The notes below the pieces were generated by a model that was not told the origin of the DNA, made no database searches, and worked only from the letters and a program-made list of their open reading frames with translations. Shown piece after piece: positions 2,906-14,770 of a DNA stretch of 24,162 nucleotides. The position numbers were made by a program, and so were the translations under genes. The first letter of the stretch is position 1. Every line of letters begins with the position of its first letter. The stretch comes from a virus, in the IMG/VR virus record IMGVR_UViG_3300020021_000208, positions 1 through 24,162 of that record; one strand, 5' to 3'.

Positions 2906-4269
2906 AGCAACGGTCACGGTCTCGATTCGATGCCGTCGGTGATGAGATTGTGTCCTCAGAGGACACGTCGATCACGCCATCATGGAAGGTCGATTATTCG
3001 AAAGACTTCGAGCGGAAGATGCTCCGCACGCTCTTCCAAGATTCTGACTTCTCGACCACGACCGGGACGCACCTCTCGCACCAGTACTTCTCGACGCCTG
3101 CCCTGCGATGGCTCGCGCAGAAACTCGTCGGTTACAACAAGGAGTTCGGTGTCGGCTGCAGCAAAGATGCACTGCAGATCGAGTTGGAACGCGACGTCAA
3201 GATCGGTCGACTCACGAAGTCGAACCGCGACGCCGCGAAGGCGCTCGTCGACACGATAGACGCGGTGGTCAAGGACCGGTCGTACGTCAAGGATGAGCTG
3301 TTCCGATTCATAAAGAACCAGACCGTCGACCGCGCGATCCGCGCGAGCATCGACCATCTCGACGCACAAGACTTCGACGCAGTAGATCGCGAGCTGCAGA
3401 AGGTCCTCGACGTGCGCACGTCGGCGGACGGTGGGCTCGGACACTTCTTCGTGCGTGATCGTCAGCTGCGTCGCGAGCGTCGCAAAGGCTACGCATACAA
3501 CGGTGTACCGACCGGGTTGTTCGTCGACGAGAAGCTAAAGCCGAAGGGCATCCCTCCGAAGTCGCTCACCACGATCGTGGCTCCATCGGGCGTCGGCAAG
3601 TCCGGTGTGCTGATGTTCATGTGCAAGAGCGCCGTCGTCATCGGCGAGAGGAAGGCGCTCTACATCACCACGGAGCTGTCCGAGGAGGTCGTGTGCGATC
3701 GCTTAGACGCGTCGTTCACCGGCGTGTCGATCAACATGCTGGAGAAGGAGCGCAAGGACGTCAGCCTCAAGGTGCGCAGCCTCGGCAAGAAGTACGGCGA
3801 GTTCCTCGTGGTCAAGGAATTCCCGCCGGCGATGCTCTCGCCGAACGGCCTCCGCGCGTACATCCGCCAGCTGGAGAGCGTCGGCTTCTACCCGGATGCC
3901 ATCTACGTCGACAGCGCCGACGACATGATTCCGGACAACCCGGGTCGCGAGCGCGACTCGTACGAGGACTACGGGCAGGTATGGCGCGGACTCCGCAAGC
4001 TCAGCTATGACGTCAACGCTCCGGTCGCCACAGCGAGTCAGACGCAGCGCGGGGCGCTCAACAAGGAGCACGTCGACTGGGACTCCATCGCCGACTCCGC
4101 CAAGAAGGTGATGGTCTCCGACCTCGTGATGATCCTCCAGCAGACGCGCGAGGAGCACAAGCAGAAGGTCGGTCGTTTCTACATCGGCAAGAATCGGTTT
4201 GGCTCGGCGAAGTCGGAGTGGAAGGCACGTTTGGATTGGGGTCGCATCGATATTCGAACGACCGGATGA
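2902..4269 (+). CDS. DnaB/gp41-type replicative DNA helicase
   Basis: 455 aa. The ATG overlaps the preceding stop (ATGA). An N-terminal helical domain (about residues 30-180) precedes a RecA-like ATPase core. Walker A is APSGVGKS (227-234), a catalytic Glu lies in TTELSEE (about 256-262), Walker B is AIYVDSADD (333-341), and the sensor/arginine-finger region is ATASQTQRG followed by GKNRFG near the C-terminus. This order is that of DnaB and T4 gp41 hexameric helicases, which unwind the lagging-strand template 5' to 3' and recruit primase. The primase gene is about 1.1 kb downstream on the same strand. Unlike the other helicase in the window, its Walker A is uninterrupted. Confidence 0.93.
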   Translation: MKQRSRSRFDAVGDEIVSSEDTSITPSWKVDYSKDFERKMLRTLFQDSDFSTTTGTHLSHQYFSTPALRWLAQKLVGYNKEFGVGCSKDALQIELERDVKIGRLTKSNRDAAKALVDTIDAVVKDRSYVKDELFRFIKNQTVDRAIRASIDHLDAQDFDAVDRELQKVLDVRTSADGGLGHFFVRDRQLRRERRKGYAYNGVPTGLFVDEKLKPKGIPPKSLTTIVAPSGVGKSGVLMFMCKSAVVIGERKALYITTELSEEVVCDRLDASFTGVSINMLEKERKDVSLKVRSLGKKYGEFLVVKEFPPAMLSPNGLRAYIRQLESVGFYPDAIYVDSADDMIPDNPGRERDSYEDYGQVWRGLRKLSYDVNAPVATASQTQRGALNKEHVDWDSIADSAKKVMVSDLVMILQQTREEHKQKVGRFYIGKNRFGSAKSEWKARLDWGRIDIRTTG

Positions 4270-4941: not shown

Positions 4942-5150
4942 ACGACAGACAACGCGCAGAAGTGACCAAAGAGTTGATCCGCGCGCAGGACGCGCTCCAC
5001 AACGCTCACCGCATCGCGGCCTGCGCGAACGAACTGGACCTCGCCGCCGACCTTCGCAAACGTCGCGTCGCGCTCGGCGACGCGATCACGAGCGTCAACG
5101 GTGGCCCGGTCAAGGTCCGCGCTACCGAGCTGCTCGGGTCGTTCCGATGA
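4938..5150 (+). CDS. Small unknown protein, 70 aa
   Basis: ATGA overlaps at both ends couple it to its neighbours. The protein is helical and rich in Ala, Arg and Leu (KELIRAQDALHNAHRIAACANE), with no recognisable domain. An in-frame start far upstream would overlap the coiled-coil gene heavily and is rejected. Confidence 0.75.
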   Translation: MNDRQRAEVTKELIRAQDALHNAHRIAACANELDLAADLRKRRVALGDAITSVNGGPVKVRATELLGSFR

Positions 5151-5377
5151 ACGACGACGCCGAGAGGTTCGCGCCGATCGACGCTAGACGAGTCGCGCGG
5201 ATCAGCAATCGCTTCGGCGACAAGCGCCACGACATTAGCAGCAGGCGTTTCGTGCGGGTCGTTGGCCACGCCTCGTTGATCCTCGCGGCGTGCGGCTGTG
5301 GTCACAGGGTCGTCAAGGTCGGCGTCTGTCCGATCTGCGGCGGCGCGGAGCTGTCCGCCGAGGAGCGCACCTCGTAG
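5147..5377 (+). CDS. Small zinc-ribbon-like protein, 76 aa
   Basis: Starts with an ATGA overlap. The C-terminal half has CGCGH (about residues 49-53) and CPICGG (about 63-68), four Cys that could hold one zinc ion. The N-terminal half is basic. The stop codon touches the primase ATG, so it may act with or near the primase, but no specific function is recognisable. Confidence 0.72.
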   Translation: MNDDAERFAPIDARRVARISNRFGDKRHDISSRRFVRVVGHASLILAACGCGHRVVKVGVCPICGGAELSAEERTS

Positions 5378-6406
5378 ATGATCGCCAACTTCAAAGCGAT
5401 CGACCGAGCGTTCGACACCGAGCGCTACATCCTCTCCGTGCACCCGAACGCACCGCGCAGCGGCGGCAACTTCATCATCACGTGCCCGCACTGCGAGAAG
5501 GACAAGTTGTGGGTGCTCTACGTCGACCGCGAAGACGTCCGCGCGCCCGCGTGGCAGTGCTTCTCCGGTGAGTGCAGCGACAGAGGCCGCACGGCGTTGT
5601 CGCTGGTGCGTCGGATCGAGGACTGCGACACGTTCGCGGCGCTCCTCCTCATCCAGAAGTTCCAGAAGGGCAACGAGCCGATCATCGACCTGCGCAGGCT
5701 CGTCGAAGATCGTCTGATCGGCGACGTCGAGGTGTGGGACGACAAGCCGATCGTGCCGGTGCCGTTGCCGGACGAGTTCGTCAAGGTCGCGTTCGGCGCG
5801 AAGCGATCGGACCTGCCGTCGTATTTCACGAAGCGAGGCATCGGTCCGAAGAAGGCGCATCGGTGGGGTCTCGGGTGGTGCGACGACGGTTACTTCAAGA
5901 ACCGTCTAGTGGTCCCTGTGACCAGCGGAGACGACGTCTCGTTCTTCGTCGCACGTTACATGAAGGAGAAGCCTCCGAAGGGTGTCAAGAAGACGCTCTA
6001 CCCGAAGGGCGCCAAGCCGGGCCGTCACCTCTTCAACTATGATCGCGCGAAGACGTGCGAGCGCATCCGCATCGTCGAGGGTGTGCTCGACGCGATCCAC
6101 ATCGGCAAGTCTGCGGTTGCCACCTTCGGCACGTCGCTCTCCCAGTACCAACTGAGGTTGCTCATGCAGTCTGCGGCGAAGGAGATCACCATCATGTGGG
6201 ATCTCGACGCCTACGACAAAGCGCTCATGCTCGCAGATCGACTCGCGGACCTCTGGACGGTGCGCGTGGTGAAGCTTCCCGACGCGCGAGACCCTGACGA
6301 GCATGACTTGAAGGACCTCGAAGCGATGGAGGACGCCGCGACAGCTCTCGACACCTCCGGCGCACGTCGTGCGTACGTGCTCAGTCGTCTTGAACGTGCC
6401 AGCTGA
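5378..6406 (+). CDS. DNA primase (zinc-binding plus TOPRIM)
   Basis: 342 aa. The zinc-binding domain has C36-P-H-C39 and C61/C66. A typical DnaG core segment follows, YFTKRGIGPKKAHRWGLGW (about 149-167). The TOPRIM domain has the catalytic Glu in IVEGVLDA (232-239) and the metal-binding acids in WDLDAYD (274-280). Primases of this type, DnaG in bacteria and gp61 in T4, make RNA primers for Okazaki fragments together with a DnaB-type helicase, which is encoded at 2902. The length is close to T4 gp61 and shorter than bacterial DnaG, with no obvious helicase-interacting C-terminal domain. The ATG directly follows the preceding stop; GAGGAG (about 5353) is 12-14 nt upstream. Confidence 0.93.
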   Translation: MIANFKAIDRAFDTERYILSVHPNAPRSGGNFIITCPHCEKDKLWVLYVDREDVRAPAWQCFSGECSDRGRTALSLVRRIEDCDTFAALLLIQKFQKGNEPIIDLRRLVEDRLIGDVEVWDDKPIVPVPLPDEFVKVAFGAKRSDLPSYFTKRGIGPKKAHRWGLGWCDDGYFKNRLVVPVTSGDDVSFFVARYMKEKPPKGVKKTLYPKGAKPGRHLFNYDRAKTCERIRIVEGVLDAIHIGKSAVATFGTSLSQYQLRLLMQSAAKEITIMWDLDAYDKALMLADRLADLWTVRVVKLPDARDPDEHDLKDLEAMEDAATALDTSGARRAYVLSRLERAS

Positions 6407-6426
6407 CTTGTGCTGCTTGCGATCAT

Positions 6427-6451
6427 GTAGTAGCTTTGCGGCCTACTTTTT
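6427..6451 (+). terminator. Weak terminator-like hairpin after primase
   Basis: GTAG (6427-6430) and CTAC (6443-6446) can pair around an internal GC/GC pairing and are followed by five T residues (6447-6451). The stem is short and imperfect, so termination would be partial at best. It lies immediately before a promoter, where an operon boundary makes sense. Confidence 0.3.
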
Positions 6452-6452
6452 G

Positions 6453-6482
6453 TTGACAACGTCACCGTAAACGACGTATCAT
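6453..6482 (+). promoter_or_regulatory. Promoter with palindromic -35 region (copy 1)
   Basis: TTGACA (6453-6458), 18 nt, then TATCAT (6477-6482). The -35 lies in the palindrome TGACAACGTCA (6454-6464), followed by CCGTAAAC. The same arrangement recurs at 15993 before the gp47-type gene. Predicted transcription starts near 6489, leaving a leader of about 16 nt with GAGGACCAAGAGCAG before the ATG at 6505. The -35 match is perfect for a housekeeping sigma factor. The palindrome could also be an operator for a repressor or activator. Confidence 0.7.
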
Positions 6483-6504
6483 CAACGCCGAGGACCAAGA
6501 GCAG

Positions 6505-6699
6505 ATGACAGACGAGAGCAACTATCGCGAGGTGACCGAACAGTGCGTCACCGGTTTGCCTACGCGCGCCGCTGCGGAATCGCTTCGCGACCTCACCCAG
6601 CGCGGGCTCAAGCAACGAAACCAAGACGACGACTACATCATTCGGATCAACGAACGCGATGGAGTCTTCGACATGATCGTCATGACGCGAGTCAACTAG
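6505..6699 (+). CDS. Small unknown protein, 64 aa
   Basis: First gene after the 6453 promoter, with GAGGA 10-15 nt before the ATG. The protein looks like a compact alpha/beta fold (ESLRDLTQRGLKQRNQDDDYIIRINERDG). No family is recognised. A gene placed first after the promoter is probably well expressed. Confidence 0.75.
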   Translation: MTDESNYREVTEQCVTGLPTRAAAESLRDLTQRGLKQRNQDDDYIIRINERDGVFDMIVMTRVN

Positions 6700-6707
6700 G
6701 AGCCCAC

Positions 6708-7469
6708 GTGAAGAAGCCGAAGAAGAAATCGACCAAGAAACCGAAGGCCGTCCTGAAGAAGGTGGCGAAACCGACCAAGAAGCCGGCGGCCAAGCCGCCC
6801 GAGGAGACCATGGATCGCACGTCACTCAAGTCCATCGTGTCCCAGCTCAAGGACATGGGCTCTGACATCAAGGCGCTCAAGAGCGACACCGATGAGCTTC
6901 TCCAGAAGAAGGTCAACGAGGCGTTGCAGAAGCTCCCAGCGCCGGATCTGCTCAAGAAGCTGGAGACCATCGTCCCAGAGAAGCTCGTGTCGGTCCTCAA
7001 GCGAGACTGCATCGGGCTCTTCATCGACCTCTCCGACGTCTCGTGTGTGCGTTGTCCTGACGCAGGTCTGTGCGCGCGCACCTTCATCAACAACCTGAAG
7101 AGCGGTCTCAAGGGCGTCGACGCTGCGTTGCCGTCGACCGAGGTCGTCGAGAAGAAGGCCGCGAAGACGTCCATCACGCCGGTGTCACGCTACGAGGCCA
7201 AGCGTCTCGTGTTCGTACGCGACCAACCGAACCCCAACCCGAATGGTGATCCCTACCACGACACGTTCCAGGCGGTGCTCGACGAGCAGCCGGACACGCT
7301 GTCAGACCTTCGTGAGATCGTCGAGCGTGACTTCGAGATCGAGAACGACGGTGACTTCATGAAGTTCGTGACCACGATGCGCGACCCGAAGGAAGGCATC
7401 ATCAAGCTCGACGTCGACCTATCGGAGAAGAACAAGAAGGACCTGCGCGAGTCAGGTGTTGAAGTCTAG
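6708..7469 (+). CDS. Unknown protein with Lys/Pro-rich N-terminal tail, 253 aa
   Basis: A GTG start at 6708 follows TAGGAG (6697-6702) at 5 nt. The first about 30 residues are Lys/Pro/Ala repeats resembling a histone H1 tail and probably bind nucleic acid. A helical, coiled-coil-like segment follows (IVSQLKDMGSDIKALKSD). Next comes a Cys cluster, CVRCPDAGLC (about residues 109-118), then an acidic C-terminal region. I recognise no family. The Cys cluster could bind zinc. Neighbours are replication genes. The frame is open upstream over the 6505 gene, but no start there has a ribosome site. Confidence 0.78.
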   Translation: MKKPKKKSTKKPKAVLKKVAKPTKKPAAKPPEETMDRTSLKSIVSQLKDMGSDIKALKSDTDELLQKKVNEALQKLPAPDLLKKLETIVPEKLVSVLKRDCIGLFIDLSDVSCVRCPDAGLCARTFINNLKSGLKGVDAALPSTEVVEKKAAKTSITPVSRYEAKRLVFVRDQPNPNPNGDPYHDTFQAVLDEQPDTLSDLREIVERDFEIENDGDFMKFVTTMRDPKEGIIKLDVDLSEKNKKDLRESGVEV

Positions 7470-8050: not shown

Positions 8051-11000
8051 ATGGCTGACAGACCACCCACCATCTTCGCCGAGACTCCGAAGCAAGCTCG
8101 TAGCCTGATGGACGAGTTATTCAAGGAAGCTTACAAGCCAGGCAAGATCACCGGCGTCGACACGGAGTTCGTGCCGATCTCGAACGAGCCCGTGCTGATG
8201 TCATATTCGTGGGGCAAGGGCATTCGGCGCGTCGTGCGCGCGGAGCTGGTGAAGGAGTTCTTCGGGGACTGGCTCGTCGACGACCAGACCAAGCTCGCCT
8301 ACCAGAACTACAAGGCCGACGTCGAGACCTTCGAGTACCTCGGCATCTCCCACAAGGAGCTGGTCGCGAGCTTCTACATCGACGTCATGGTCGCCGGCGT
8401 GCTGCGAGACGAGACGCTCGTGAAACATGGCCTCAAGGCGCAGATGTTCCACTGGTTGAGGTGGTACAGGCGCGAGTACGGTCAGACGTTCGTCTACGTC
8501 CCGGTCGGCAAGAAGAAGGCGATCGTCATGGATCCTCGGCAGGTCATGGACAACCTGCCGCCGGACGCGCTGCTCAACGCCGTGCTCAAGTGGGGTGGTG
8601 CGAAGGGCATCCACAAGACCGGACCGCGCGACGCCGACGCGTGGAAGTGGGCGATGCTCGACTACGCGGGCGTAGACGCCGAGGGCACGCAACGTCTCGC
8701 GGTCGACCACCGTTCCTACCTGAAGAAGACCGGATATTGGGACAGCTACGTCAGCGTCGATCTGCCATTCACGACGACCCTCATGCAGTGCCAGGCGAGC
8801 GGCGCGTTCATCGATCAGCCGACGCTTCGCAAGATCCTCCGCAAGCAGGAGATCCGGATCCTGCGGGCCGAGCACTGCTTCCGCGCCGCGGCTGGCAACC
8901 CGAAGCTCAACCTGCGGTCAGGTCCACAGATGAAGAAACTCTTGTTCGGAGAGTGGGAGTGGCCCGCGCACCCGACCAACAAGAGCGAGAAGACCGGCGA
9001 GCCGTCGATGGACAAGGAGGTCCTGCAGTGGTGGCTCAAGAAGCACAAGCTGGAGATGGCTGAGGTGAAGCTCGCGTTCAACAACGCGAGCACGATGAAA
9101 GGGACCTTCCTCGAAGGCATCTTGCTCGGGATGAGCGACGACGGGCGCCTGCGTTCAGATCTCAACCAGATCGGTGGCAAGACAAGTGGTCGAATCAGCT
9201 CACGCAAGTTCGACGTGCTGGTGGAGACGCATCGGACGCTCAAGAACGGCGACGTCAAGACGATCATCTCCAAGGAGAAGGCTGGCGCCAACGTCCAGAA
9301 CATCCCTGCTCGACACGAGAAGGACCCGGACGGGATCCGTCGCGCGTTCCGCGCTCCGAGGATCGGCGAGACCACAGCATGGGGAGAGCCTGCGACCGAG
9401 AAGCACAAGCTGATCGTTTGCGTCGTTCCTGAGACGAGGGTTCTCAAGGCGGACATGACATGGGTCGCCGCTGGCGACATCATGCCTGGAGACAAGCTGG
9501 TTGGGTTTGATGAAGATCTTGCGGTCAAGACGAAGTTGAACAGCCACGGTAAGCCTTACAAGATCCGTGCAGGGCAAGGAGCGAAGCTGAGGGAGTCGAT
9601 CGTGCAGAGCGTTCGACTCCTCAAGAAGGATTGTTTTCGAGTCGTCACCGATCGAGGAACGGTGACTTCAAGCGACGAGCACATGTGGGTCGCGAAGAAG
9701 CGGAGTTCCCGCTACAGCAACCTGCGCGAATGGATCCGTACCGACGACCTCGAACCAGGAGATGAGATCACGTTCTTGTGTTCTCCGTGGGACGTCGACA
9801 CGTCGTACTCCGGTGGTTACCTGGCCGGCGTATTCGACGGTGAAGGTTGGGTGCATCGCGGCAGTGTCTGCTTCGGACAGAACAAGGGTCCTACGCTCGA
9901 CATGGTCAAGACGCTGCTCACGCATTGTGGATTCGACTACGTCGAACGTCCGCAGAACAAGAAGCGTCCGAAGATGCGGCAGTTAGAGCTACGAGGAAAC
10001 CGGGCAGCGATGCGTTTCCTCGGTTCGATTCGACCGAAGAGATTGCTCAACACCTACATGAAAGATCGTTGGCAAGGCACTTCGACGTGGGGCAACGGCA
10101 TGTCCGTCGCTCGTGTTCTAAAAGTTGAACGCGTGCACGATGCTGCGGGTGGGCACAGCCGCGACGTCGTAGCGATCAAGACGTCGACGAAGACCTTCAT
10201 CGCAGAAGGAATGCTGAGTCATAATTGCGATTACAGTGGCTTCCACCTCGTGCTCGTCGCCAACTTCATCGCGAAGCTGCCGGGCAAGCCAAAGTCCGCG
10301 ATGGTCGACGTGATGAAGAAGTACGGCACGCCGAGCGCCGTGCACGTCTACACCACGATCCAGATGTTCAAGCATGCCGAGGCACATCGGTGCGACTCGT
10401 CGTCGCCGTGGTGCAAGGTCGTCGACAAGAAGACGAACAAGATCACCGCCGACTGGAAGAAGTTCCACGCGCCTGGCAAGTCGTACTCGCTCAAGGAGTT
10501 CACGATGGACGACTGGGGAATGGTCAAGCCGATCTTCCCCGACCAGTACACGTACTCGAAGAACACCAACTTCGCGCTCATCTTCCTCGGCTCGCCGTGG
10601 ACGCTCGCCTACAACACTGGCCGCGATCCCGAAGACGAGGATCAGCTCAACGAGTGCAAGCGTCACTTCGACGACTGGTACGAGCTTTACCCGGAGATCC
10701 CCGAGTACCAGAACTTCATGATCGACCACGGCTACGAGCACGGCTGGGTCCCGAAGATCGGCGGCGGACGCGGTCACGTCCGCAAGATGCTCGAAGGCTG
10801 CGACAAGAACGGCAACTACATCCACGACGAAGAGAAGCGCAAGAAGATGCGCAAGCACGGCGAGCGCGTGTGCACGAACACGCCGGCACAAGGCAGCGAG
10901 GCGGCGATCGTCAAGATGGCGATGAACCTGATCCGCATGGACAAGGAGATGATCGAGCTGCGCTCTGCACCGCTGTTCCCGGTCCACGACGAGGTCGTGT

Positions 11001-11458: not shown

Positions 11459-11910
11459 CGTTTTGGAAAAATCGTGAAGTTGGATCAATACGCGCAATTC
11501 ACCCGGCGACCGGCAAGATCATCGAGGTCTTCCCGCAGAAGGACGCCCGTATCGGCAGCGACCTCGATCAGGAGCTGCGCCGTCTGCCCGGCGTGATGAG
11601 CTGGTGGCTGGCGCTGCGCGACCGCGCCGAGATGCACCTGCGCGACGCGAAGCACGAGGAGCACAACGCGTCCGAAGACCTCTACGAGGAACAGCGGACG
11701 AAGAGCCCTAAGGCCACCGAGACCGCCATCAAGATGGCCGTTAAGGTCCAACCTCGGATGCGCAAGGCGTTCCGCGCTCGCATGGACGCGCAGTACATGT
11801 ATCAACAACTCAAGAGCCAGGTCGACGCCATCGCGGAGAAGCGGTGGTCTCTGCTCGGCCTGACGAAAACGGCGCTCATGGAGCGAGGCACCAAAGACAG
11901 CATCAGTTGA
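11455..11910 (+). CDS. Possible UvsY-like recombination mediator, 151 aa
   Basis: The protein is almost wholly helical and charged. Its first 35 residues include VGSIRAIHPATGKIIEVFPQ; long helices follow, and the C-terminal pattern ARMDAQYMYQQLKSQVDAI plus a Trp-Leu-Leu segment resembles UvsY-like proteins. UvsY in T4 loads UvsX recombinase onto gp32-coated single strands. Size (T4 UvsY is 137 aa) and position immediately before the gp32-like and RecA/UvsX genes support this. Sequence similarity by eye is weak, so the call rests mostly on context and pattern. Any other helical accessory protein is possible. Confidence 0.5.
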   Translation: MTFWKNREVGSIRAIHPATGKIIEVFPQKDARIGSDLDQELRRLPGVMSWWLALRDRAEMHLRDAKHEEHNASEDLYEEQRTKSPKATETAIKMAVKVQPRMRKAFRARMDAQYMYQQLKSQVDAIAEKRWSLLGLTKTALMERGTKDSIS

Positions 11911-11964
11911 TCGACGAGCCGAGTTGGCCTGACGATCTTGAACAACCCTGAACAGGAGCTACAG

Positions 11965-12939
11965 ATGGCGAAGATGGATAAGACGAGCAAGAAGCGACGC
12001 ACTGACGACGGCGGAGAAGACCTCGACGAGATGCGCGAGGCGTTCAAGCACCACAAGGAGCGTTCCAAGGGCGGCGGTGGTGGTGACAGTTCTTGGGACA
12101 AGCTCGGCGACGGCAAGAACATGCGTCGCGTGTTGCCGCGCCCCGGCGAGAAGAAGTTCTACACGGAGGGCTGGACGCACTTCAACGTCGGCCCGAACAA
12201 GCGCGCCGTGCGCTGCATCGACGAGGCGCACATCAACGCCGACAAGGGGCTCCCCGAGTCGACCACGAAGTGTCCGCTGTGCAAGAAGTTCCTGCGCGAG
12301 CAGAGCCGCATCAACAGCGAGTATCAGAAGGGTGACAAGGACGGCCACGCCGAGTGGAAGGCGGCCAAGGACAAGTACGTCCCGCGGCACCAGTTCTACG
12401 CGAACGTCCTGGCCGAGGGCGACGACGACGACGTCGAGGTCCGCATCCTCGCGTTCGGTTCTCAGATCTGGGGCGCGCTGCTGAACTACTACCTCGGCGA
12501 CGACACGTCGATCGGTGACTTCACCGACCCTGAGAGCGGCCGGTGGATGAACCTCAAGAAGGTCAACAAGGGCGGGCGCGACAAGCGCAACGTCGGCTAC
12601 GAGGTGTATCCGGCGAGCGAACAGACCGACATCTCCGACGCGTGGGACGACATCAAGGAGGCGCTCCATGACCTCGATGCCGCCACCGGCAAGCTCATGT
12701 CGAAGGACGAGGTCATCGCGATCATGAAGGGCATCGACCTCGACAAGGGCTCCGACGACGGAGACGACGATGACGACGACTCGGATGACAGCAGCAGTCG
12801 TCGTAAGGTCAGCAAGAAGCGTCGCGACGAGGACGAAGAAGAGGAAGATGACGGCGAAGACGCCGGCGACGACGATGACGAGCCGGTGAAGAAGTCCAAG
12901 TTGTCCGTCTCGATGAAGAAGAAGCGTCGCGACGACTGA
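11965..12939 (+). CDS. gp32-like single-stranded DNA-binding protein
   Basis: 324 aa. AGGAG (11954-11958) precedes the ATG by 6 nt. The N-terminus is basic (KTSKKRR) with a Gly run. A core with a likely zinc site follows: H72, C84 and C103-P-L-C106, comparable in order to the His-Cys-Cys-Cys set of T4 gp32. The core then has aromatic and basic residues (HQFYANVLAEG, QIWGALLNYYLG) typical of an OB-fold that stacks on single-stranded DNA. The tail from about residue 265 is extremely Asp/Glu-rich, as in SSB proteins where it binds partner proteins, but here it alternates with KKRR blocks and ends KKKRRDD. It coats single-stranded DNA at the fork and in recombination; recA follows. Confidence 0.88.
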   Translation: MAKMDKTSKKRRTDDGGEDLDEMREAFKHHKERSKGGGGGDSSWDKLGDGKNMRRVLPRPGEKKFYTEGWTHFNVGPNKRAVRCIDEAHINADKGLPESTTKCPLCKKFLREQSRINSEYQKGDKDGHAEWKAAKDKYVPRHQFYANVLAEGDDDDVEVRILAFGSQIWGALLNYYLGDDTSIGDFTDPESGRWMNLKKVNKGGRDKRNVGYEVYPASEQTDISDAWDDIKEALHDLDAATGKLMSKDEVIAIMKGIDLDKGSDDGDDDDDDSDDSSSRRKVSKKRRDEDEEEEDDGEDAGDDDDEPVKKSKLSVSMKKKRRDD

Positions 12940-12948
12940 GTCTCGTGT

Positions 12949-13091
12949 GCGAGCGTGGCTACGGGGTTTTTCATGGTACGTGCCGCCTAACCTCGGATCC
13001 CTGAAGCAGCTATTCGGTCAGTCGGCTGTAAAGAGCACGGCTGTGGAGCACGGGCCGACTGTAGACCGCTAAGTAGCTGTGCCACGCTCGC
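12949..13091 (+). ncRNA. Candidate structured RNA between the SSB and recA genes (recA leader)
   Basis: Four mutually compatible helices fill this non-coding gap. P1 pairs 12949-12959 (GCGAGCGTGGC) with 13081-13091, 11 perfect pairs closing the whole element. P2 pairs 12962-12968 with 12989-12995 (7 pairs, one G-U). P3 pairs 13006-13013 (GCAGCTAT) with 13073-13080 (8 pairs, two G-U). P4 pairs CAGTCGGC (13019-13026) with GCCGACTG (13054-13061). P3 and P1 3' strands are adjacent, giving a three-way-junction-like fold. Five T follow at 13097-13101, then the recA ribosome site AGGAG (13108-13112). It does not match tRNA or tmRNA by eye. It may be a cis-regulatory leader, an attenuator or a separate small RNA. 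Confidence 0.5.
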
Positions 13092-13119
13092 CCACCTTTT
13101 TCGTGACAGGAGAACAACG

Positions 13120-14190
13120 ATGCCGAAGAAGAATAAGAAGGCGGAATGCGACTGCGACTGGTGTCGTGGTCGTGACTTCGTACGTGGTCCTGATTGCACG
13201 AATCCTAAACCTCGCGCACGAGAGGAAGAGATCCGTGCGATGCGCAAGGCGCACAGCACCGGCGCGAAGAAGCAACCCGAGCCTCCGAAGGTCGACAAGG
13301 CGAAGGACAAGAAGCTCGCGGCGTTGTTCGAGAAGCTCAGCAAGAAGTACAAGGGCGAGGTCGTGACCACGATCGCCAGCGGACACCGTTCGGCGAACAT
13401 CAGCGCGATGCCGAGCGGATGGCCAGTCATGGACGATCTCGTCACCGGCGAGACCGACGCTGACGCTCGCACGATCATCGGATCAGGGCTCGGTTGGCCA
13501 CGAGGTCGCATCATCGAGATCTTCGGAGAAGAGAGCGTCGGTAAGACCAGCCTCGCGCTCCAGATCGTCGCGGCGTTCCAAGCCGCCGGCGAGACCGCGG
13601 CGTACGTCGACGCGGAGCACGCGCTCGAAGTCGACTACGCGAAGAAGCTCGGCGTCAACCTGGAGACGTTGAAGCTCGTGCAGCCCGACGACGGCGGCGA
13701 GCGCGCCATGTCGGTCGTCAACTCGCTCGCCGAGAGCGGGCTGTTCGGCGTCATCGTGGTCGACTCGGTGTCCGCCCTCGTCCCGCAGTCAGAGATGGAG
13801 GCCGACTTCGAGGACAACGTCCAACCTGCGCGTCAGGCGGTGCTGATGTCGCGTGCGCTGCGCAAGCTCACCGGCGTCGTCCAGAAGAACAACGTGCTGC
13901 TCGTCTTCATCAACCAGATCCGGATCAAGATCGGCGTCCGGTTCGGCAACCCGAAGACGACGTCCGGCGGTCAGGCGCTCCGGTTCTACGCGAGCGTCCG
14001 CTTCGAGCTGACCAACATGAAGACCCAACGCAAGGGCGACCGCGTGACCGGTCGTCGCATCCGCGTGCGCACGGTGAAGAACAAGGTGGCTCCGCCGTTC
14101 CGCGACGTCTATGCTGATTTAGAACCAAATCATGGGTTCCGTAGGATATATGGGGATCCGGACTTCTCACATGGAGCTGACGACGACTAA
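13120..14190 (+). CDS. recA: RecA/UvsX-type recombinase
   Basis: 356 aa. AGGAG (13108-13112) lies 7 nt before the ATG. The RecA core has Walker A GEESVGKTS (136-144), the catalytic Glu in VDAEHALE, Walker B VIVVDSVSALVP, loop L1 EMEADFEDN, and NVLLVFINQIR followed by loop L2 and FGNPKTTSGGQALRFYAS. It forms filaments on single-stranded DNA and exchanges strands. Two oddities are visible. The first 26 residues hold four Cys (C10, C12, C15, C26) in a basic extension that could bind zinc. The protein also ends soon after the last core strand, without the C-terminal domain of bacterial RecA. The last 80 bases overlap the HNH gene. Confidence 0.95.
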   Translation: MPKKNKKAECDCDWCRGRDFVRGPDCTNPKPRAREEEIRAMRKAHSTGAKKQPEPPKVDKAKDKKLAALFEKLSKKYKGEVVTTIASGHRSANISAMPSGWPVMDDLVTGETDADARTIIGSGLGWPRGRIIEIFGEESVGKTSLALQIVAAFQAAGETAAYVDAEHALEVDYAKKLGVNLETLKLVQPDDGGERAMSVVNSLAESGLFGVIVVDSVSALVPQSEMEADFEDNVQPARQAVLMSRALRKLTGVVQKNNVLLVFINQIRIKIGVRFGNPKTTSGGQALRFYASVRFELTNMKTQRKGDRVTGRRIRVRTVKNKVAPPFRDVYADLEPNHGFRRIYGDPDFSHGADDD

Positions 14191-14770
14191 ACCAATCCTG
14201 ACGGTGTGCATCGTTTGTTTAGTTCCAACCATTCTAAGGACGAAGAACGAACGTCGATGGTTTCATCGTGGACGACCATACTGCTCGACTAAGTGTCGCG
14301 ACCGGTACATCGCTGAGCACACTGGAGGTCGACCGACTGAATTGATGGAGATGCGGTTCTGGAAACGCGTCGACAAGAATGGTCCGAAGCAACCGCACAT
14401 GAAGACGCGGTGCTGGGAGTGGGTCGGGTGCTTGACGAGCGGGTATGGGAAAATGAAAGACAGCGATGGAGTCGCAAAACAAACAACGCATGTCTCGTGG
14501 TTTCTCCGGTATGGAAGATGGCCAGATCAGTTCGTGCTGCACAAATGTGATCATCCGTCCTGCGTCCGCCCGTCGCACCTCAAGCTCGGAACTCAGAAAC
14601 AAAACATCGCGGACATGTGGAGCAGAGGTCGCGGAAAGGCTCCGTGGCATCAGATGACTGAGAAGGTGATCAGAGTCATGAAGAAATACAACGTATCGAA
14701 AGACGTCATTGATGCTGTCGTAGCTGATCTTGGCGCTCGCGCTAGAGAGCGACTTCTGAGGCGCCGATGA
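14150..14770 (+). CDS. HNH homing-type endonuclease
   Basis: About 206 aa. Starts at 14132, 14150 and 14171 are in frame; 14150 has AGGA close upstream (3 nt), so the exact start is uncertain. The N-terminus carries a treble-clef-like set, CIVC and CSTKC. The nuclease domain follows: RFWKRVDK, CWEWVGCLTSGYGKM, THVSWFLRYG, then LHKCDHPSCVRPSHLKLGT with the His and Asn of the HNH fold, and QNIADM. The C-terminal helices (TEKVIRVMKKYNVSKDVID) look like the DNA-binding tail of such enzymes. The gene is less GC-rich than its neighbours and overlaps the recA end, which suggests insertion of a selfish free-standing endonuclease gene. Confidence 0.87.
   Translation: MGIRTSHMELTTTKPILTVCIVCLVPTILRTKNERRWFHRGRPYCSTKCRDRYIAEHTGGRPTELMEMRFWKRVDKNGPKQPHMKTRCWEWVGCLTSGYGKMKDSDGVAKQTTHVSWFLRYGRWPDQFVLHKCDHPSCVRPSHLKLGTQKQNIADMWSRGRGKAPWHQMTEKVIRVMKKYNVSKDVIDAVVADLGARARERLLRRR

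Follow-up and report, generated by a model that had tools for sequence, protein, structure and literature searches.

Comparative evidence for a structured noncoding RNA between the ssb and recA genes of two related phages

The 180-nt gap between ssb and recA in the window analyzed here, a viral record of 24,162 bases, very probably encodes a genuine structured RNA of the + strand. The element folds as a three-way junction, its pairing is under selection, as seen against the homologous gap of a second phage (IMGVR_UViG_3300050138_000298; loci L004/L011/L015, called L011 below) that emerged from protein and pattern scans, and no reading frame is conserved in it. Our best explanation is that it acts in cis as an intercistronic leader or processing element of recA on the ssb-recA mRNA, a role that we propose tentatively, at a little below even confidence.

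Upstream of the gap come, in order, an intein-containing DNA polymerase A gene, two small genes, and a gp32-like ssb gene; 3′ of recA lie an HNH endonuclease gene and then more replication and repair genes. As the first-pass annotation had stated, it is the only long gap in this part of the operon, which holds for the stretch from polA to recA. The flanking genes are as follows:

11965 to 12939, + strand: ssb, gp32-like single-strand-binding protein (start ATG 11965 or 11974)
13120 to 14190, + strand: recA/uvsX-type recombinase (PF00154, 4.5e-82; phrog_97, UvsX-like)

The ssb product of the window itself had no family match, and its relatives match Pfam gp32 PF08804 (9.7e-11) and phrog_1192, single strand DNA binding protein (2.3e-24); an AlphaFold model of the window SSB had a mean pLDDT of 40 and was left aside. 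The polymerase intein is of the LAGLIDADG type (9419-10225, after KLIV and before CDYSGFH), and that of L011 sits at another site, before TNFALIF. The C-terminal part of a second LAGLIDADG intein lies at 69-590, within a helicase-like open reading frame (69-1601). The HNH endonuclease frame (14132-14770) overlaps the 3′ end of recA; L011 lacks it after recA and has a different HNH-like gene at 6390-6866. In the window, a cysteine-rich stretch, ECDCDWCRGRDFVRGPDC, takes the place of the RecA N terminus (13135-13225) and cannot be aligned with L011 or other relatives.

A nested element of four helices had been described in the gap from the sequence alone. Its closing stem, 11 bp of perfect pairing (12949-12959/13081-13091), is exact and is lengthened by GUG/CAC (12945-12947/13093-13095), P1 having 14 bp in all. 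The helix 12962-12968/12989-12995 is present in the MFE fold, as is 13006-13013/13073-13080, which really has 9 bp (13006-13014/13072-13080); the remaining one, placed at 13019-13026/13054-13061, exists but takes the register 13020-13027/13053-13060 in the MFE fold. The description had missed 5 bp at 13015-13019/13064-13068, which unite the last two helices into one arm of 22 bp, and the fold is therefore a three-way junction rather than four nested helices. Its parts are as follows:

12945 to 13095, + strand: whole structured RNA, three-way junction, 151 nt (MFE fold; kept in L011 at 3620-3775; CM self-match 187.7 bits)
12945 to 12959, + strand: P1 5′ strand, GUG-U-GCGAGCGUGGC (15/15 identical in L011)
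12962 to 12995, + strand: P2 arm (12962-12968/12989-12995; tip 12974-12977/12982-12985; UUUUUC in the internal loop)
12996 to 13005, + strand: junction strand GAUCCCUGAA from P2 to P3, unpaired in the folds of both the window and L011 (7/10 columns identical)
13006 to 13027, + strand: P3 5′ strand, 22 nt, all paired (9+5+8 bp; 21/22 identical, one pair-keeping change)
13028 to 13052, + strand: P3 apical loop, 25 nt, with GAGCACG at 13033-13039 and 13046-13052
13053 to 13080, + strand: P3 3′ strand, with 3-nt bulges GUA (13061-13063) and CUA (13069-13071) (27/28 identical)
13081 to 13095, + strand: P1 3′ strand, GCCACGCUCGC-C-CAC (15/15 identical in L011)
13096 to 13119, + strand: linker C-UUUUU-CGUGACAGGAGAACAACG with the recA ribosome-binding site, 24 nt (13095-13119, 25/25 identical in L011)

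P3 abuts P1 directly, with 0 unpaired nt on the 3′ side, and the U5 run begins one nt past P1. Both GAGCACG copies are kept in L011, where the spacer between them differs by 2 nt; a 3-bp helix that the program drew inside this loop is broken in the L011 alignment and was dropped. On inspection of the predicted fold, the P1+P3 helix appears long enough for a candidate RNase III site.

The predicted folding energy of 12940-13119 is -76.3 kcal/mol on the + strand (z of -3.0; 1/200 shuffles) and -64.2 on the - strand (z of -1.4). Several other windows of a 601-window grid over the genome have z near or below -3, and fold energy by itself is weak evidence in a G+C-rich genome; the real evidence is the comparison with L011. 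Very stable folds are also predicted on both strands of a coding region at 4960-5220 (-82 to -89 kcal/mol per 160 nt). The L011 element folds with a z of -3.3, and the two gaps are 92.6% identical, fourfold-degenerate sites being 67% (ssb) and 70% (recA) identical. Five substitutions fall within the 47 core pairs of the structural alignment, and all five keep a standard pair, each via G-U (GU to AU, UA to UG, UG to UA, GU to GC, and CG to UG). None of the 47 pairs is broken by substitution (P = 0.0019); when the same substitutions were placed at random, a mean of 4.2 pairs was broken, and none was broken in only 0.19% of trials. P1 carries no change and P3 carries two; most changes belong to P2, to the junction strand, or to the spacer of the apical loop. 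P2 is the most variable arm, with three one-sided pair-keeping changes and one terminal pair lost through an indel. The first-pass annotation had held that a lack of compensatory changes in related phages would speak against the RNA: in the two sequences compared, substitutions keep the pairing, as in conserved structured RNAs generally, but all five changes are one-sided and none is a double compensatory change.

The involvement of G-U in every kept change identifies the + strand RNA as the molecule under selection; a DNA cruciform or a - strand RNA was rejected because the kept G-U pairs exist on the + strand alone and would otherwise be lost. A conserved leader peptide was likewise rejected, as indels of 1 and 2 nt shift the frame; a GTG frame of 18-19 codons at 12945 has the same end in both phages and no ribosome site, and by eye its sequences differ after the start of P2. 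The 25 nt through to the recA start codon are identical in the two phages, and identity falls a few codons into recA; recent exchange between phages of the whole module, 150-200 nt long, could add to the high identity. That the gap has no RNA function, being a recently exchanged DNA module or a chance fold in G+C-rich DNA, would fit the z of -3 reached elsewhere in the genome and the mere two known copies, but the pair-keeping changes (P = 0.0019) and the strand asymmetry, both in a noncoding region, make us regard this as quite improbable.

The known members of this RNA, as judged by sequence searches, are two, those of the window and L011. SSB and RecA proteins were scanned against viral contigs and DNA patterns were searched; in a covariance-model check of the resulting loci and 19 whole records, the element was found only in L011. 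Searches of phages and plasmids gave no further homolog, nor did about 300 actinobacterial genomes, a group that may not be the phage's host. The loop motif shared with L012/L013 lies inside a coding gene and is due to chance, as are pattern matches L120-L123 in genome contigs; the weak model match of L121 (20.4 bits, 48 nt, 81% G+C) passes over the greater part of the model. We also rejected the idea that GAGCACG is a signal used throughout the genome, its frequency being probably codon driven. The earlier view of a real structured RNA belonging to no class that could be named is borne out: no Rfam 15 family reached its gathering threshold in the window, and a permissive scan of the gap returned just a microRNA family (E = 1.7), far below its threshold. 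A brief literature search found no description of this element, which does not prove that none exists.

Related phages, taken as the clade defined by ssb and recA, differ at this junction. In seven of them (L017, L020, L021, L023, L024, L027, and L038), the distance from the ssb stop to the recA start is about 0-10 nt. The gap of L014 is 105 nt long (1855-1959) and weakly structured (z of -1.7), and as a candidate homolog it was not significant (p of 0.13-0.45); its last 30 nt resemble the recA leader of the window, and the spacing UUUUUC-N4-CAGGAGA is common to both. Three others have tRNA-Leu-like RNAs in the gap:

L018, 3897 to 4043: tRNA-Leu-like RNA, acceptor stem and T arm kept
L019, 1399 to 1523: tRNA-Leu-like RNA, acceptor stem and T arm kept
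L016, 3903 to 3950: tRNA-Leu-like RNA, acceptor stem and T arm kept

These are not normal tRNA genes. Their anticodon region is enlarged in L018 and L019 and largely deleted in L016, and the L019 RNA, which has a 58-nt insertion in place of the anticodon arm, scores 33.3 bits, above the Rfam gathering threshold for tRNA. Their acceptor stems differ by paired changes (GUUGAGA/UCUCAAC versus GUCGAGG/CCUCGAC), and over the whole gap the three match one another beyond all 400 shuffles (p below 1/400). Inteins were also seen in recA of two related phages (L019, 1540-3711, and L043, 513-2642). The tRNA-like RNAs share the ssb-recA site with the window element, and two of the three are folded RNAs of similar size; unlike it, they keep a T arm and an acceptor stem, and they have no sequence similarity to it.

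In a tree of ssb and recA, phages with a tRNA-like RNA branch from either side of the deepest split and also neighbor the group of the window; on this distribution, the tRNA-like RNA was probably in the gap first. The window and L011 fall inside lineages with the tRNA-like RNA. This placement and the common insertion site might suggest that the element descends from the tRNA-Leu-like RNA, having diverged and lost the T arm; P3 adjoins P1 in the way that a T arm adjoins the acceptor stem, and N7-UGGC followed by UGGUA near the 5′ end recalls, by eye, the start of a tRNA-Leu. Such descent seems improbable to us, as the window and L011 elements have no similarity above shuffles to the three RNAs (p of 0.44-1.0), which do match each other, and no tRNA was recognized: ARAGORN found no tRNA or tmRNA (a cloverleaf with T arm and anticodon) in the window, and RF00005 had no match in the gap. 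Replacement of the tRNA-like RNA by the junction element is the likelier course. We speculate, with considerable doubt, that a new phage RNA family has displaced an older tRNA-like RNA from its intercistronic position, unrelated but functionally equivalent RNA modules holding the junction between SSB and recombinase genes; if so, folded RNAs would serve as mRNA punctuation in different members of one phage group.

We favor an element that works in cis on recA, be it a spacer, a processing site, or a leader with a protein-binding loop, because a conserved linker and the recA ribosome site lie directly behind the element; the better folding of the + strand than of the - strand is in keeping with this. 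Carried as a structured noncoding RNA within the + strand ssb-recA transcript of a small phage group, the element would part recA from ssb translation, the genes nearly abutting in relatives without it. It might further protect or define the 5′ end of the recA message and give recA its own ribosome site, with the long bulged P1/P3 helix as a putative platform for cleavage or protein binding and the repeat-bearing P3 loop as a putative site at which a factor from phage or host binds. An invariant apical loop is superfluous for a plain processing or spacing signal, which counts against this explanation. Several relatives have no element at all, so ssb and recA can in general be expressed without it.

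Both options raised at first, a recA leader and a separate small RNA, stand as the main ones. As the latter, a stand-alone phage small RNA, cut out of the operon transcript or transcribed from a promoter of its own, might act in trans through base pairing or protein binding by the GAGCACG repeats, a possibility that we take seriously while doubting it. The compact closed fold, with P1 forming the ends and a U5 run one nt after it, would suit such an RNA, as would the invariant loop repeats, and the site is one used for RNA genes, since three relatives carry a tRNA-like RNA gene there. The linker to recA, however, is as conserved as the RNA itself, and GAGCACG is common in the coding sequence of the genome, so that no target stands out. 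Nor was a σ70-like promoter or a classical terminator recognized nearby, which is weak evidence; 11900-14300 contains no intrinsic terminator, in the sense of a short G+C-rich hairpin followed by a T run, the U5 run here following a 151-nt multi-arm fold.

The proposal that the element is sensed by the SSB encoded just upstream fared worse. By analogy with T4 gp32, which represses its own mRNA, the gp32-like SSB would repress recA through an operator; the upstream gene is gp32-like, the structured RNA sits 5′ of a ribosome site, and M13 gp5, which represses another gene, is a precedent for such control (PMC535899). The T4/RB69 gene 32 operator consists of a pseudoknot of about 28 nt and then >40 nt of mRNA that is rich in UUAAA, less structured, and spans the ribosome site, and it sits upstream of gene 32 itself (PMC535899). 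It resembles the present case in being a structured RNA 5′ of a ribosome site, in the replication/recombination region and adjacent to a gp32-type SSB gene, but here a 151-nt junction lies downstream of ssb. We saw no short pseudoknot, and the ribosome site is not covered by a long unstructured region rich in UUAAA: the linker measures 24 nt, and 13096-13180 contains no UUAAA or UAAA. Most relatives with this SSB, close ones included, have no element, and we consider an SSB operator very unlikely.

To our knowledge, few structured phage RNAs are known outside model phages. The present element is backed by comparison and not by folding alone, and its defined anatomy offers targets for mutagenesis. 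Related phages, in which this junction is empty or occupied by a tRNA-like RNA, form a natural comparison set for the contribution of a folded RNA between two recombination genes.

Among known systems, T7 has RNase III processing signals between its genes, and the present element shares with these the layout of a long hairpin, bulged on one strand, between genes of an early-type operon; it differs in its three-way junction and invariant apical loop, and cleavage would here be a candidate activity. The packaging RNA of phi29 is a three-way junction of about 150-170 nt with paired ends. It is similar to our element in size, architecture, and closed ends, but it belongs to another phage type and gene context, and the two have no sequence or Rfam match.
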